Assembly: GCA_947489315.1 (NCBI GenBank)
Contig: CANLCX010000002.1
Location: 434,001 to 498,000 of the forward strand
Source of the DNA: an uncultured Sphingomonadaceae bacterium
Lineage (GTDB): Bacteria; Pseudomonadota; Alphaproteobacteria; Sphingomonadales; Sphingomonadaceae
Length of the DNA stretch: 64,000 nucleotides
Direction of reading: 5' to 3'
Shown here piece by piece: positions 19,093 to 57,436 of the stretch. A model generated the notes under the pieces. The model did not search any database. It worked only from the letters and a program-made list of their open reading frames with translations, and was not told the origin of the DNA. Numbering within the stretch: position 1 is the first letter of the stretch; each line of letters opens with the position of its first letter. The position numbers and the translations under genes were made by a program.

Positions 19093-19120
19093 GTGTCCGC
19101 TATATCCCGAAAGCGGACAC
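19093..19120. repeat. Dispersed GTCCGC palindromic repeat, copy 2
   Basis: GTGTCCGCT and AGCGGACAC form a perfect 9-bp inverted repeat around ATATCCCGAA. It lies in the gap between DUF3592 and the CHASE2-EAL gene. Confidence 0.75.
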
Positions 19121-51082: not shown

Positions 51083-51132
51083 TGGAACCCCGGCTTCCGG
51101 GCACCGGGAAATGCGGGAAGGACGGGGTTCCA
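51083..51132 (-). terminator. Terminator of the secreted repeat protein gene
   Basis: TGGAACCCCG and CGGGGTTCCA form a perfect 10-bp outer stem with an inner CTTCC/GGAAG helix. On the minus strand it is followed by TTTTTTA. Confidence 0.7.
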
Positions 51133-51216: not shown

Positions 51217-51894
51217 CTAGTCGTTTCCTCCCGACGTAACGGACCTGGTCTCTCCGTCGCGGCCTGCGTAAACGGTTGTTCTTGTTCCATCGTCATAGGT
51301 CACCGATTTGGTAGCGACAGTCTCGCCTTGCCCGTTGGTCCACGCTCGATTGACAGTACCGCCGTCGTCTGTGCGCGTGCCAGTGGCATCATAGCTGCCG
51401 CCACGGCCGTTGCTGGTGGCAAAGTTTTTACTGCGGCTAAATCCGTCATCGGTTCGCGCAATATTTGATGCCGCATTTGCGGATTCTCCGTTTCGGAAAG
51501 TTGCTCCGTAGCTGCGATTGATGCTGTCTTCATTCACGTCCGCTGAGGCAGAGCGGGTAGCGGTTCGTCCCTGAAAATCGGTATAGGCATATGATGCATT
51601 ATACCCGTTGTTGGTGCGTTGGGCGCCACGATCATAAGTTGCTGTTCGACCATCGGCCGCGGTCCAGCGGACCGAACTATTCGCTGTTCCAGCATCGCGA
51701 TTGACATTACCATTGGCGTTTTTGCTTGCCTGTCCGCGTCTTGTATTGACGGTTACAGTGTCGCTCAAACTACCGCCACCTCTTTCAAAATTGCGATCTG
51801 CAATGCGGGACCTGGCATCGGCGACTTGCACGGTTCCCAAAAAAACTGCTGTTGAAACGAATAAAGCTACGACAAATTTTATGGATTGAAACAT
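51217..51894 (-). CDS. Secreted Gly/Asn/Thr-rich repeat protein
   Basis: The 225-residue protein has a signal peptide (cut near VADARS, residue about 28) and a low-complexity mature part rich in N, G, T, S and R with a repeated pattern around ATYDRG, ASYAYTDFQGRTATR, GGSYDATGTRTDDGG and VTYDDGTRTT. It may be a beta-solenoid-like or extracellular adhesive protein. Its promoter carries the same ECF-type motif as the Spy-like gene at 54427, so it is probably controlled by the adjacent sigma factor. Confidence 0.75.
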   Translation of the reverse strand: MFQSIKFVVALFVSTAVFLGTVQVADARSRIADRNFERGGGSLSDTVTVNTRRGQASKNANGNVNRDAGTANSSVRWTAADGRTATYDRGAQRTNNGYNASYAYTDFQGRTATRSASADVNEDSINRSYGATFRNGESANAASNIARTDDGFSRSKNFATSNGRGGSYDATGTRTDDGGTVNRAWTNGQGETVATKSVTYDDGTRTTVYAGRDGETRSVTSGGND

Positions 51895-51926: not shown

Positions 51927-51958
51927 CCTTTGACGAACCGAAAGCCCAAAATATTCCT
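51927..51958 (-). promoter_or_regulatory. Predicted ECF sigma promoter P2
   Basis: On the minus strand GGAATATTT, 13 bp, CGTCAAAGG, with 16 bp between GGAATA and CGTC. It lies 38 bp upstream of the secreted repeat protein. It matches P1 (54919-54950) in both boxes and in total length. Confidence 0.65.
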
Positions 51959-51985
51959 TCAATCGGGAATTATTTTTGAATTTTA

Positions 51986-52384
51986 TTATTGCCTCAATTG
52001 GTAGCGTTGGCGAGCGAGCATTTCCCGTTCTTCCAGAGTTTTTATTTGCTGTTCGCTGAGGTGAGGGGCGAGATCGGATTTCATTCGTCCAAATCGTTCT
52101 GAGATAGCTGTTCGGCTGGTATCGACCACTTCCTCGATATCGCGCCCCGCAGACGTAATGATCGGCGATATTCGCTTTTCCTGTTCTTCGGATACCGGAG
52201 AAATGACGTCGGTCATCACTGTCACAAAGCCGTCTGTTTGGCCCATTGAACGGATCAAATTCAGGCGGTTACTCACAATCGCGCCTGTAACAGCGGCGCC
52301 GATCAACATGCCAATTGCCAAGGTGCTCAACAGCACAAATAGCGGGCGCCTGTAAAAACGTACTTTAGTGTCGGACATTTCCAT
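51986..52384 (-). CDS. Membrane-anchored Spy/CpxP-like helical protein
   Basis: A 132-residue protein with one transmembrane helix (about residues 15-37) and a helical extracytoplasmic domain with several Q/E/R-rich heptads ending EREMLARQRYQLRQ. It resembles the heavy-metal-sensor/Spy-type helical proteins, but the family match is not certain. The ATG at 52384 lies just after the anti-sigma stop. Third gene of the sigma-factor operon. Confidence 0.65.
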   Translation of the reverse strand: MEMSDTKVRFYRRPLFVLLSTLAIGMLIGAAVTGAIVSNRLNLIRSMGQTDGFVTVMTDVISPVSEEQEKRISPIITSAGRDIEEVVDTSRTAISERFGRMKSDLAPHLSEQQIKTLEEREMLARQRYQLRQ

Positions 52385-52401
52385 TTTCCCAAAATTTGGC
52401 A

Positions 52402-52836
52402 CTATAAAAATAGTGCGGTGGCGATATCGATAGCGGGCAGTCCAAACAGCGCTTCAAATACGCTGCTCCCCGGTGTTGCGGCGCTGGCGTTGCTTGCCAT
52501 CGCAAAGGCCGAAAGTGCGAAAGCGGGTGTTGCCACACGCGGGAATAGTCGGCCTAAGGCTCGGGCAAAATCCACATCAAAAAATCCCTGTGAAGCGGGG
52601 CTTGGTGCAGGTGCGTTTTCTTCTTCGATCCGGTTCATCACCCGCTGATCGAATTGGGATCGGAAACTTGGAGCGGGCCCGGAAACCAGTATCGACCGCA
52701 ATTCCCGTTCGGCCGCGATCAGTTTTTCCAGTTCGGGCTGGCGTTGTTTCATCTCATCTAGGGCCGCTTGCTCTTCAGGCGAAATGCGTCCTTCTACCAA
52801 GCGTTCAATAAGATATTGGATGTGTTCCTCAGTCAT
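52402..52836 (-). CDS. Putative anti-sigma factor
   Basis: The 144-residue protein has an N-terminal helical part (EEHIQYLIERLVEGRISPEE), a middle linker and a weakly hydrophobic C-terminal third (RVATPAFALSAFAMASNA). Its ATG overlaps the sigma-factor stop by 4 bp, the usual arrangement for sigma/anti-sigma pairs. No zinc-binding HxxxCxxC is present. Confidence 0.7.
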   Translation of the reverse strand: MTEEHIQYLIERLVEGRISPEEQAALDEMKQRQPELEKLIAAERELRSILVSGPAPSFRSQFDQRVMNRIEEENAPAPSPASQGFFDVDFARALGRLFPRVATPAFALSAFAMASNASAATPGSSVFEALFGLPAIDIATALFL

Positions 52837-53414
52837 GCTGTTGCCCCTGTTATAGTTTTAGCCATCTGTGCCTTCCCCCGTGATAATCGCGATAATATTG
52901 TGCCGCTTGGTACATCTAATATGTCTGCGGCTTCTTCGATACTAAAGCCCTCCATCAATCTTAGAACAACGACCGCCCTGATTTCGGGGGCCAGCTTTCC
53001 AAGGGCAAATTGCACGAGTTGCCGGTTTTCCGCGTCACGCCCCTGATCTTCGGTTCCCGGTATTTCGTCTTGCCAATCTCGCTCATTGTCTTTGGGGGCG
53101 AAGAAGCGCTTCAAACTCCGTTTACGCCTGCGCAGCGCATCACGTGCGCTGTTCATGGCGATCCGGGTGATATAGGTCTTAAGGGTAGCCTGGCCTTCAA
53201 ACTGCCCCATGTTCCGGTAAAATTTGATCATCACTTCCTGGCCCACTTCATCGGCTTCATCGCCGTTACCGAGCATTGGAATGATCGTCGCAGCGACGAC
53301 TCCCTGATAACGGCGGACAAGTTCTGCAAAGCTATCATGGTTGCCGTCCTTGGCGCTGCTTATCAACGACAAATCGGTCATATCCTGAACGGATATCATA
53401 GAAGGTTGGTACAT
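52833..53414 (-). CDS. ECF-family RNA polymerase sigma factor
   Basis: A 193-residue sigma factor with region 2 (FAELVRRYQGVVAATIIPML, DEADEVGQEVMIKFYRNM) and region 4 (LAPEIRAVVVLRLMEGFSIE, then EAADILDVPSGTILSRLSRG). It directs transcription of an envelope-related regulon. The likely promoter motif is GGAATATTT-N13-CGTC. Start uncertain between ATG codons at 53414, 53399 and 53381; the last has the best ribosome site. Confidence 0.93.
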   Translation of the reverse strand: MYQPSMISVQDMTDLSLISSAKDGNHDSFAELVRRYQGVVAATIIPMLGNGDEADEVGQEVMIKFYRNMGQFEGQATLKTYITRIAMNSARDALRRRKRSLKRFFAPKDNERDWQDEIPGTEDQGRDAENRQLVQFALGKLAPEIRAVVVLRLMEGFSIEEAADILDVPSGTILSRLSRGKAQMAKTITGATA

Positions 53415-53437
53415 TTTTCGAATGCCATAACATCATT

Positions 53438-54328
53438 TCAAGCCAAATTCTGGTTCTCGTCAAGGCGATCCGCTACGTTTTCGCTTTGCCGCCTATTGGG
53501 AGACCATCCCGGGTGCCGGAACATATAGCCCAGCACATCCTTCATATTATCCGCTTTGGCGATGTCTTTTGCCATATTGATCCACTCAAAAAACGCGATC
53601 TTGAACGGATTGTTCGTCGTTACGGGTGTCACCGTGCCATAGACGATGGTGATATCATCCCGTTCAGCCTTATAGGTACCAAATATCCGGTCATATATCA
53701 TCAAAACGGCGCCGTAATTCTTATCCAGATATTCAGGGTTGGAAGCGTGATGGACGCGGTGATTGGAGGGTGTGTTTATGTAGCTCTCCAGAAAACCTAG
53801 CTTCCCTATCCAGCCGTTATGAATCCATATCTGGTAGATCAGGCCTGCTGCCAATGTCACCAATATGCTTACCGGGTGAAAGCCAAGCCAAGCCAATGGC
53901 AAGAAGAAAAGAACTTTCCCAGATATCAGACTGGTCACTCCCAATCGGCTAGCAACCGACAAGTTCATATGGTTAGGCGTATGATGCACGCCGTGGGTGG
54001 CCCACATCCATCGGATTTCATGTCCAAAGCGATGGTTCCAATAATAACAAAATTCGACAGAAAAGAAGAGAAGTGCGAGCATTACAACGCTGTTAACTTC
54101 TAGGGTCATGATCCGATACTCGTACGCCCAGAAAAGAATCCCGGCAACGATACTAGCAGTAAAAAGATCGATGATGCGTTTGAGAAATGTGACACCGAAA
54201 GATGCCGCTGCTTCTGCCCAAGGATAGTTTTCCTTGCGCCGAAAAATGATCCAGGCGGCTTCCATCAAAGCCAAAACGGCCAGAAAAGCAATGATACCCG
54301 TTTTGCCTTCATAGGTTCCAAATTCCAT
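53438..54328 (-). CDS. Sterol desaturase/fatty-acid hydroxylase family protein, third copy
   Basis: The 296-residue membrane protein has the di-iron histidine motifs YYWNHRFGHEIRWMWATHGV, then HHTPNH, NHRVHHASNPEYLDKNYGAV. It is a divergent relative of the pair at 42782 and 44012, not a recent copy. It lies 24 bp upstream of the sigma factor on the same strand, so it may be co-transcribed with it. RBS AGGAG precedes the ATG. Confidence 0.9.
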   Translation of the reverse strand: MEFGTYEGKTGIIAFLAVLALMEAAWIIFRRKENYPWAEAAASFGVTFLKRIIDLFTASIVAGILFWAYEYRIMTLEVNSVVMLALLFFSVEFCYYWNHRFGHEIRWMWATHGVHHTPNHMNLSVASRLGVTSLISGKVLFFLPLAWLGFHPVSILVTLAAGLIYQIWIHNGWIGKLGFLESYINTPSNHRVHHASNPEYLDKNYGAVLMIYDRIFGTYKAERDDITIVYGTVTPVTTNNPFKIAFFEWINMAKDIAKADNMKDVLGYMFRHPGWSPNRRQSENVADRLDENQNLA

Positions 54329-54365
54329 TATATTCTCCTGTGCTCACACCCAGTAAAAGGAAAGA

Positions 54366-54413
54366 AGCGGTGCCGACCGGTTCGGGGGAGGGACTGGTCT
54401 GGCCGGCACCGCT
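54366..54413 (-). terminator. Terminator after the Spy-like gene
   Basis: AGCGGTGCCG and CGGCACCGCT form a 10-bp stem with a longer loop. On the minus strand it is followed by TCTTTCCTTTT. It separates the Spy-like gene from the desaturase gene. Confidence 0.7.
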
Positions 54414-54426
54414 ATTCAGGCGGATA

Positions 54427-54873
54427 TTAACCGCGAATGCGCTTCATCATCTGCGCGCGCTGTTCAGCCTGAATGCTGGCAAGAATATGCATTTGGGAAT
54501 TGTCCAAAATTTGCGACAATTTTGAATTGGTATCATCCCGCTGACTGGAAATTTCGTCCCGAAGAGACAGTTTCTGACGAAAGCTCAGGCTCGGCTTTTC
54601 AGACCGGGAGATGCCATAGCGCTTCAATATGTCCATCTGCTTTTGCATGCTCGCCCGCAAAATCGGTTTGACTTGGTTTTTTTGAGAATCCGTTAGGTTA
54701 AGTCTTGCGCTGACATCGACAAGACGCTGTTCCAGCTGCTGTTGAGAAGCTTCACTCATTGTGCGACTCTGCGCCTGAGCGGTTCCGGGAAATACCAACA
54801 TCATCGAAAGTACGATCGCTGCTGCCACACTTCCATTTATCGTCCAGATAAATTTTGAAATTACATTTTGCAT
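54427..54873 (-). CDS. Periplasmic Spy/CpxP-like (LTxxQ) protein
   Basis: A 148-residue protein with a signal peptide (cut near GTAQA, residue about 34) and a helical domain with LNLTDSQKNQVKPIL (LTxxQ motif). Spy/CpxP proteins act as periplasmic chaperones in envelope stress. The promoter P1 upstream fits the nearby ECF sigma factor. RBS AAGGAG precedes the ATG. Confidence 0.82.
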   Translation of the reverse strand: MQNVISKFIWTINGSVAAAIVLSMMLVFPGTAQAQSRTMSEASQQQLEQRLVDVSARLNLTDSQKNQVKPILRASMQKQMDILKRYGISRSEKPSLSFRQKLSLRDEISSQRDDTNSKLSQILDNSQMHILASIQAEQRAQMMKRIRG

Positions 54874-54918
54874 TTTTAAACTCCTTCATTTCGCTTGACC
54901 TTTTCAAGCGGTTCGGAG

Positions 54919-54950
54919 CCTTAGACGTCAGGGCGATTGGAAATATTCCC
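54919..54950 (-). promoter_or_regulatory. Predicted ECF sigma promoter P1
   Basis: On the minus strand GGAATATTT, 13 bp, CGTCTAAGG. The gap between GGAATA and CGTC is 16 bp, in the range for ECF promoters. It lies about 46 bp upstream of the Spy-like gene. Matches P2 (51927-51958). Confidence 0.65.
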
Positions 54951-54984: not shown

Positions 54985-55045
54985 TGTCGACTTTTGCACC
55001 CACAACGGACACTAGAGTTGTGTCCGCAATATCCGGAAAGCGGAC
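54985..55045. repeat. Dispersed GTCCGC palindromic repeat, copy 6 (double unit)
   Basis: The left unit ends in CACAACGGACACTAG and the right unit is GTGTCCGCAATATCCGGAA followed by AGCGGACG. This is the most complete double copy and was used as a reference for copies 3 and 5. Confidence 0.7.
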
Positions 55046-55108
55046 GCTTGAATTGGTGTAGAGGTCGCTCCACAAGCTTCACAAAAAATGATCTGAAGCC
55101 TTGCAGTA

Positions 55109-56128: not shown

Positions 56129-56449
56129 AACAGTTATCCCTCTTTAACAATATACATCCCAGAACCTTCACTATCATGGGACGGCCATCGTAAGGATATA
56201 AGGTTTGTCGAAATGCCCGACTGCCGGATAGCTGTTATGTGAGCATGGTCGGGGTACTTCACGATAATTTCTGCCACTGGCTCGGTTCCGACAAAGCCCG
56301 CGCCTCAAAACCAATAGGTCATGTGGACCTATGCGTAGCCTAGTACGTTGCCGGCAGTCGCCTAACGGATAAACGGGATAATGGATGGTGAGACTGGCTG
56401 GACTCATCATAGATATTCATCACGCCCTTTAGCGACAAAGAGGATAGAT
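56129..56449. promoter_or_regulatory. Divergent control region between two DUF1838 genes, 321 bp
   Basis: Contains a palindrome ATAGGTC-n5-GACCTAT (56314-56332) and a perfect 10-bp inverted repeat CGACTGCCGG (56218-56227) / CCGGCAGTCG (56351-56360). No gene seen. These may be operators of a regulator shared by the divergent genes. Confidence 0.4.
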
Positions 56450-57436
56450 ATGACCTTCGTGACAAAGAATTTTAGCCGCCGCAGCGCGTTAGGCGCCGTT
56501 GCCGCTCTGACCGCGACAACCGTTGCGGCCCGCAGCAAGGCAGCCATTACCGACGGTCCGCCTTCCCAAAAACCCCTCGTTCTGGATTATGACAATCCGA
56601 AGTGGAATCGCGATGCCTATGCGCGGATTGTTGGCAATCTTGACTTTTCCAAAGAAAAAATCGGCTGGTATAAAGGCAAAGCCATTGGCGTTGTTCCCGG
56701 CAAAAAGAACCTCGATATTTGTGGCTTTGAAGGCTTTTCCGTTGCGCGCTTGCTTCCGCTCGAAGACGGAAGCTATCGCAAAGTCTTGCGCGAGGTCGGG
56801 TTTTACCGCGATCTTAAAACCGGAAAAATTATGGACGCGATGGAGAACCCTTATACAGGAGAAACCGTCAAGGTCGTCCCCATCGCCAATGATCCCTTCA
56901 ACTTTACCGTATCGGAATATGCGCGTAGCGCGCCCAAATATGGGGGATTGAATAAAGAAGATGCACAAAAAATTCCCTTCGTGCTCAAATGGCAGGAAAT
57001 GGGCGATACCGTCCTTATGTCTCGCGACATACATCTATACTATCCATCGGCCCTGCAGCCTGACAAATGGCCGCGAGAAACACCGGGCCCCATGACGCAG
57101 GTTACTGAAGCCTTCAATTATTTCATCGACCGCAAACAACTTGGCGACCCGGACAACACATCCATCTCATTCATGGGGACATGGAACCGCGTTACGCCCT
57201 GGTTCCCCTGGATGTTAATGGATCAAGCCCCCGGTCATTGCGTCTATATTTGCGATCAGGGCGCTTGGGATCATTGGGACTATATACCGCAGGATATTAT
57301 CGACGCCGCCAAGGCTATTGATCCGAAATATTTAAGCGCCCCAACAGAAGATTATGGATCATCACTCTCCAGCCTCGAGCATTATGCGCGCGAACAAACA
57401 CCCGCCCCGCCGCGCAAGCTAAAAACAACAAAATAA
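56450..57436 (+). CDS. DUF1838 family protein, Tat-exported
   Basis: The 328-residue protein starts with a twin-arginine signal (NFSRRSALGAVAALTATTVA) and has the DUF1838 core: KFGW-like KIGWYKGKAIGVVPG, FYRDLKTGKIMDAMENPYTG, LYYPSALQPDKWPRE, APGHCVYIC. Export folded through Tat suggests a bound cofactor or metal, but none is known. Close relative of the protein at 60343. The ATG at 56450 follows AGAGGA. Confidence 0.88.
   Translation: MTFVTKNFSRRSALGAVAALTATTVAARSKAAITDGPPSQKPLVLDYDNPKWNRDAYARIVGNLDFSKEKIGWYKGKAIGVVPGKKNLDICGFEGFSVARLLPLEDGSYRKVLREVGFYRDLKTGKIMDAMENPYTGETVKVVPIANDPFNFTVSEYARSAPKYGGLNKEDAQKIPFVLKWQEMGDTVLMSRDIHLYYPSALQPDKWPRETPGPMTQVTEAFNYFIDRKQLGDPDNTSISFMGTWNRVTPWFPWMLMDQAPGHCVYICDQGAWDHWDYIPQDIIDAAKAIDPKYLSAPTEDYGSSLSSLEHYAREQTPAPPRKLKTTK

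Follow-up and report, generated by a model that had tools for sequence, protein, structure and literature searches.

Which sigma factor reads two closely matched promoter-like sites, and how many genes it controls through them, is the question raised by a locus in a 64,000-nucleotide stretch of an uncultured Sphingomonadaceae genome (GCA_947489315.1, contig CANLCX010000002.1, positions 434,001 to 498,000; hereafter, the window). The sites, P1 and P2, lie at either end of the genes for an extracytoplasmic function (ECF) sigma factor and a predicted anti-sigma factor. Comparison across genomes makes it very probable that the intervening sigma gene encodes the factor that recognises both as promoters, with P1 serving the operon that holds the sigma gene, which would be autoregulated, and P2 serving the gene of a repeat protein. 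The two sites are as follows:

54919-54950, minus strand: P1, predicted ECF promoter of the operon (GGGAAT at 54950-54945, N17, CGTC at 54927-54924, TAA; from motif and conservation)
51927-51958, minus strand: P2, predicted ECF promoter of the repeat-protein gene (GGAAT at 51957-51953, N17, CGTC at 51935-51932, AAA; from motif and conservation)

On the minus strand, P1 reads GGGAATATTTCCAATCGCCCTGACGTCTAAGG and P2 reads AGGAATATTTTGGGCTTTCGGTTCGTCAAAGG, and the two have the blocks GGAATATTT, CGTC and AAGG in common at identical spacing; this re-reading agrees with an initial annotation, made from the letters of the window, that had placed both sites here with the same blocks and spacing. The spacers match at 1 of 13 bases (by eye), and thus the sites are no simple duplication or copied block. 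The -35 element is GGAAT, preceded at P1 by an extra G. A genome-wide search for the first block, N13 and CGTC, which the initial annotation had proposed, was run as GGAATATTT-N12-14-CGTC and returned two exact matches in the whole 3,876,847-base genome, namely, P1 and P2, while the reversed control pattern gave none.

The genes that accompany these sites, together with two predicted RNA structures, are listed below in the direction of transcription:

54427-54873, minus strand: spyA, encoding a small helical Spy/CpxP-like protein with a signal peptide by eye (weak NCBIfam Spy match; profile relation to spyB)
54366-54413, minus strand: hairpin of 13 bp with a 22-nt loop between spyA and the desaturase gene, predicted here and in three congeners; possible partial terminator or processing site
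53438-54328, minus strand: membrane enzyme of the fatty-acid hydroxylase/sterol-desaturase family (PF04116; His motifs)
52833-53414, minus strand: ECF sigma factor, the start of which may be 53399 (PF04542, PF08281 and PDB matches)
52402-52836, minus strand: predicted anti-sigma factor with a hydrophobic stretch by eye (weak NCBIfam match; 4-nt overlap with the sigma gene)
51986-52402, minus strand: spyB, encoding a helical protein whose N-terminal helix is hydrophobic by eye and which is predicted to be a membrane-anchored sensor acting with the anti-sigma factor (model; profile match to spyA)
51217-51894, minus strand: repeat protein, probably secreted, with a signal peptide by eye (open reading frame [ORF]; seven proteins at E <= 0.001)
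51083-51132, minus strand: inverted repeat and T-run, probable terminator of the P2 transcript (sequence)

Signal peptides, membrane helices, the lipobox and the terminator of genome G458 (both below) were all judged by eye. The six genes, all on the minus strand, run from spyA through the hydroxylase, sigma and anti-sigma genes to spyB and then, past P2, to the repeat-protein gene, with successive gaps of 98, 23, -4, -1, and 91 nt; the 23 nt before the sigma gene are counted to its first ATG and become ~38 nt if it begins at the later methionine, where its homologue P0001 starts. Because all six genes share one direction, P1 heads the sigma factor's own operon and P2 stands behind it. The neighbouring genes are thus broadly those of the initial annotation, including a desaturase gene adjacent to the sigma gene in the same unit (a position kept in four of five distant loci, below), but its picture of two flanking targets gives way to one site at the operon head and one behind the operon. 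It had overlooked the positive autoregulation predicted from the place of P1, as well as the mutual relation of spyA and spyB that profile comparison indicates.

The sigma protein (193 aa) matches PF04542 and PF08281 above cut-off with no sigma3 match listed, indicating the sigma2/sigma4-only makeup of ECF (sigma-70 group IV) factors, and its best PDB matches are ECF sigmas; against the plasmid collection it had no match at E <= 1e-20. A close orthologue was present in 4 of 32 genomes of the genus, i.e., the source genome and three others at 94 to 95% identity, with the next best match among the other 28 congeners (seven of them less than 90% complete) being at 31% identity (E 4.3e-17). All three further congeners with the locus keep both P1 and P2. 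At P1, they share the -35 block, CGTC and TAAGG without change and differ in spacer and upstream bases, with the downstream leader also conserved; at P2, most of the surrounding region is conserved.

Beyond the genus, profile searches covered 397 family, 396 order, and 385 class genomes (overlapping samples), with at most eight first-look candidates scored per genome (at most nine in a repeat-protein scan, below), so that carriers may be missed. Five distant loci in four families were compared: G369 from the same family as the source, G478 and G458 from a second, G465 from a third, and G430 from a fourth; nine weaker sigma matches (E 1e-31 to 1e-33) from the family search lie outside these five. 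When all candidates were scored in the families of G458 (29 genomes) and G465 (32), no further carrier appeared at E <= 1e-30; the family of G430 was covered in part. The distribution of the module looks sparse and patchy. The distant sigma factors are 44 to 67% identical to that of the source over the aligned part, with the G430 copy, cut by a contig end, at 56% over 86 residues. Both spyA and the sigma gene occur in all five loci, the hydroxylase gene stands between them in four of five, and spyB is present in all four that extend far enough; the anti-sigma gene was recovered by tblastn in two of four (G369 and G465), and the other two hold at the same place an ORF aligning at 28 to 29% identity. 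Gene order is retained across the four families.

Upstream of spyA, GGGAAT-N17-CGTC-[AT]AA was found in all five distant loci, and the invariant columns of the six aligned P1 regions are GGGAAT, CGTC, AA one base later, and one isolated A. In the six loci, CGTC lies 36 to 74 nt before the start codon, with an A/T-rich stretch upstream (by eye). The block GGAATATTT that had been proposed from P1 and P2 does hold for that pair, but the core across families is narrower, namely, GGGAAT, with ATTT lost in loci L086 and L088; the accompanying call of ECF-type promoters is upheld, since the sites look ECF-like and the core motif and its spacing tie them to the local sigma factor in every distant locus. 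Two of these loci carry the motif twice. In G458, spyA is followed by a terminator-like stretch, past which the second copy is placed directly before the hydroxylase gene; this copy ties the hydroxylase to the sigma factor independently of operon position. In G369, the second copy stands behind spyB, and the large ORF that comes next, with a segment resembling a lipobox, encodes a probable lipoprotein; between spyB and this site, 44 residues match the repeat protein but belong to no corresponding long ORF, and they read as a remnant of that protein. G478, G465, and G430 have the spyA site only.

The strength of this motif was gauged by searching the 200-bp upstream windows of the six regions for shared patterns of 5+4 bases separated by 12 to 22 others. 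All six had just GGGAA-N18-CGTC and GGAAT-N17-CGTC in common, which are the same motif in two frames, while 0 of 2,000 dinucleotide-shuffled sets shared any such pattern, and the most widely shared pattern in each of 100 shuffled sets reached two or three regions; this test was not blind, because its form and windows were set after the motif had been seen and start codons were partly hand-chosen (e.g., in L089, where the ORF as called automatically starts ahead of the motif). Across the nine genomes with the sigma factor, GGAAT-N17-CGTC-WAA had 20 matches, of which 15 fell in the sigma locus and 5 elsewhere, four of the latter inside ORFs of 559 to 564 aa in G027 and G028 and one in a 135-aa ORF of G369. 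Chance likeness of two intergenic sequences is, on these results, scarcely credible. Loose ECF-like matches are common in any genome, and with up to three mismatches the window held 28 of them against 21.5 expected, a count reached in 5 of 100 shuffles; but the only exact ones among the 28 are P1 and P2, the other 26 carrying two or three mismatches, and the exact genome-wide pair, the five distant loci, the share of matches in the sigma locus and the shuffled sets speak against chance, which conservation across families makes very unlikely.

The strict consensus was also used to estimate the size of the regulon. The 28 congeners without the sigma factor held 16 scattered matches in 8 genomes, some of which (G003, G018, G019) nearly copy the matches of G027 and G028, and the rate outside the locus was 0.56 per genome with the sigma factor versus 0.57 without. 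A longer pattern, GGGAAT-N-TTT-N13-CGTC-WAA, was matched once off locus (G465) in the nine genomes when up to one mismatch was allowed, but it leaves the known P1 sites of G458 and G478 undetected. With no clear off-locus enrichment at strict consensus, the predicted regulon consists of the operon and one neighbour and looks local, as far as the strict motif reaches. Of the regulon proposed by the initial annotation, the operon and one neighbouring gene thus stand, but the wider set does not. A genome-wide regulon was dropped as a candidate, the motif rate per genome being similar with and without the sigma factor, with weak targets possibly missed.

These comparisons also bear on which protein acts at the sites. 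Canonical promoters of the alphaproteobacterial general-stress factor EcfG, with AAC and CGTT (available part of PMC8103513), are similar, and the genome has at least one other ECF-like gene; P1 and P2 could therefore be read by EcfG or another ECF sigma factor, with the local one serving other targets. We regard this as improbable, since GGAAT and CGTC, unlike AAC and CGTT of EcfG as given in that source, occur in all six independent P1 regions, and the motif accompanies the operon of the local sigma factor in five of five distant loci, against a low-frequency scatter in the 28 congeners without it. More improbable still is that P1 and P2 are binding sites of some other regulator instead of promoters: the two-block form, the fixed N17, the distance of CGTC from the start codon in six loci, the A/T-rich upstream stretch and the link to an ECF operon all fit a promoter. 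We infer promoter activity for both sites and specificity of the local sigma factor for them.

How far transcription from P1 extends is less certain, as the 13-bp hairpin between spyA and the desaturase gene could end the transcript, in which case P1 would drive spyA alone, the desaturase-sigma part would be read from an unseen promoter and there would be no autoregulation. This hairpin is strong and predicted in four congeners (source included), and in G458 a terminator-like sequence after spyA is followed by the second motif copy. We nevertheless consider this arrangement rather unlikely, since the tail past the hairpin has no unbroken T run, and the spyA-desaturase gap is ~24 to 43 nt in L086, L087, and L089 (by ORF coordinates, with an adjusted start in L087), which makes one transcript likely there; moreover, the site past the terminator in G458 is the same motif, which would restore autoregulation. 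If P1 does serve the whole operon, the hairpin may keep the level of spyA above that of the remaining genes.

A second structure was observed in the spyA leader (window 54874-54919, minus strand), which forms a hairpin with the ribosome-binding site in its outer stem (by eye). Its folding z score was -3.3 in the window and -2.1 to -2.6 in three congeners; the leaders of L078 and L089, of different sequence, also fold strongly (z -3.3 and -2.5), and those of L086, L087, and L088 show no such strong fold. This hairpin could stabilise the mRNA or exert translational control. As a general part of the module it was dropped, being prominent in the genus of the window, L078, and L089 but not in L086, L087, and L088. 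Pairing at the start of the P2 transcript was no better than in shuffles in the tested windows, most of which had the leading G run cut off and so gave no full test.

To what extent the encoded proteins fit an envelope-sensing circuit was judged from sequence profiles and structure models. The anti-sigma protein matched a curated NCBIfam anti-sigma model at E 9.6e-5 (22.5 bits, cut-off 100), as did four of five members of its family at E <= 0.1; anti-sigma classes are treated in PMC7406223 (available part). Spy and CpxP are small helical periplasmic proteins that are induced by envelope stress. SpyA is weakly related to them by sequence (NCBIfam Spy, E 1.8e-4, under cut-off), does not reach the gathering score of the Spy/CpxP (LTXXQ) Pfam family (PF07813, 11.4 versus 24.3 bits; best of eight members E 9.1e-4) and, unlike them, is predicted to be under an ECF sigma factor within its own operon, its matches staying under significance cut-offs. 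Foldseek placed Spy first for the SpyA model at a nonsignificant E of 0.29, and the matches include Spy, CpxP, and CnrX, with unrelated proteins ranking equal or higher. The SpyB model has a helical hairpin besides a single long helix at its N terminus (pLDDT 83.8), its profile matches that of SpyA with a probability of 96.7%, and its protein matches include Kordiimonas gwangyangensis and Pseudemcibacter aquimaris.

The hydroxylase exceeds the PF04116 cut-off (100.9 versus 31 bits), and its His99/103, 112/115/116, and 190/193/194 are invariant in five of five aligned proteins; relatives occur on 56 plasmid records, each at less than 60% identity. It shares the superfamily and histidine motifs of the ornithine-lipid hydroxylase OlsE and other PF04116 enzymes, but at 58.9 bits against an NCBIfam cut-off of 475 it is no OlsE by that test. 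In the available part of PMC8552747, a sterol desaturase gene is upregulated in the cold in Caulobacter, with no ECF link.

For the repeat protein, neither Pfam nor NCBIfam gave a match at E <= 1. Its homologues P0141 and P0142 are without an internal 54-residue stretch, which suggests that repeat number is variable. Another homologue, P0143 (57%), and the sigma homologue P0003 (71%) are each on a contig of 508,901 bases, and this is probably one further species with the sigma/repeat-protein pairing. Separately, a repeat-protein scan of 298 family genomes (E <= 1e-8) gave three matches, the source and two others. In both of these others, an ECF-like gene of a different kind lies close by: in G005 (L125, 6389-6958), the repeat protein is encoded behind it and one further ORF, and in G038 (L126, 6506-7144), the ECF-like ORF is divergent and, like a subtilisin-like ORF (by eye), lies within ~2 kb. 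ECF factors may repeatedly have proteins of this sort among their outputs.

Several observations weigh against reading P1 and P2 as promoters of the local sigma factor or against the circuit predicted on that reading from sequence comparison. The -35 element, GGAAT, differs from the usual GGAAC; the second site is present in only two of five distant loci (G430 being cut by a contig end within the sigma gene); the hydroxylase was not found in G369; and the hairpin past spyA could end P1 transcripts ahead of the sigma gene. The footprint within the genus is less sharp than across families, because the P1 leader and most of the P2 region are also conserved. The anti-sigma and Spy-like matches remain under curated cut-offs, and neither the SpyA nor the SpyB model matched PDB at E <= 0.001. 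Moreover, off-locus strict matches within the genus numbered 4 in 4 sigma-bearing genomes versus 16 in 28 without, and GGAAT-N17-CGTC-NAAGG with up to one mismatch gave 35 matches in the four sigma-bearing congeners, of which 8 are known sites and 27 lie off site (6.8 per genome), versus 144 in the 28 others (5.1 per genome), a small difference from which no clear enrichment is read and in which weak extra targets could be missed.

For the circuit itself, the nearest working analogue is CnrYXH of Cupriavidus metallidurans (ECF factor CnrH, anti-sigma CnrY, and membrane-anchored periplasmic sensor CnrX), by analogy and not by membership. There, metal binding to membrane-anchored CnrX loosens the grip of CnrY on CnrH (available part of PMC7689651), and CnrH recognises two promoters, cnrYp ahead of the regulatory genes and cnrCp ahead of the output genes (available part of PMC9045368). 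Our locus likewise encodes together a sigma factor, a predicted small membrane anti-sigma factor and a helical protein predicted to be anchored in the membrane and periplasmic, with one sigma-dependent promoter predicted for the regulatory genes and a second for downstream output. It differs in gene order, in its output (a lipid enzyme, a Spy-like protein and a repeat protein instead of an RND pump) and in SpyB, seven aligned proteins of which have no invariant His or internal Met and hence no conserved His/Met metal site; SpyB had no significant sequence or fold match to CnrX. AAC/CGT-type boxes upstream of the sigma operon and positive autoregulation are usual for ECF factors (available part of PMC8103513), and our locus departs from them in its GGAAT -35 element and the extra G before P1.

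In the mechanism that we infer, including the signal and the lipid substrate, the sigma factor would be held at the membrane by the anti-sigma factor in the resting state. SpyB, anchored beside the anti-sigma factor, would most likely sense the state of the envelope and relay it to the anti-sigma factor, comparable to CnrX acting via CnrY on CnrH. The released sigma factor would then raise the lipid enzyme, the repeat protein and SpyA, the last of which is predicted to act as a chaperone in the periplasm or as a feedback partner. Starting the unit of spyA, hydroxylase, sigma, anti-sigma and spyB at P1 would let the sigma factor raise its own operon in positive feedback, together with its brake and the two helical periplasmic proteins, and P2 would start the separate unit of the repeat protein. 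A role of the desaturase-family enzyme in an envelope or stress response, as the initial annotation had also suggested, would follow from this arrangement.

Two further elements were observed upstream of P1. A palindromic element, GTCCGCAATATCCGGAAAGCGGACG, at window 55022-55046 recurs at 19095-19119 with three mismatches (shuffles, 0 matches), and the gene upstream of P1 (55109-56128) has a DUF1838 match and a divergent neighbour (56381-57436) that is similar by eye; nothing was noticed that ties this pair to the sigma operon, though no search was aimed at such a tie.

A partial open-access literature search met no description of such an ECF module or of a hydroxylase and two related Spy-like proteins with an ECF factor. 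As a tentative proposal, which we think somewhat unlikely to hold in full, the locus may represent a patchy ECF module in which the sigma factor answers a membrane-anchored Spy-superfamily protein via the anti-sigma factor, soluble SpyA closes the loop as a chaperone or titrator, and membrane-lipid hydroxylation and a secreted repeat protein form the output, i.e., a lipid-remodelling response in one locus. The locus offers a compact, testable case in which sequence reveals an ECF sigma factor, its promoter code, GGGAAT-N17-CGTC-WAA, and a predicted six-gene regulon, all of which can be followed from family to family. Should SpyB indeed act as the sensor, the CnrX-type sensing layout would extend from metals to another envelope state and would be tied to a membrane-lipid enzyme.

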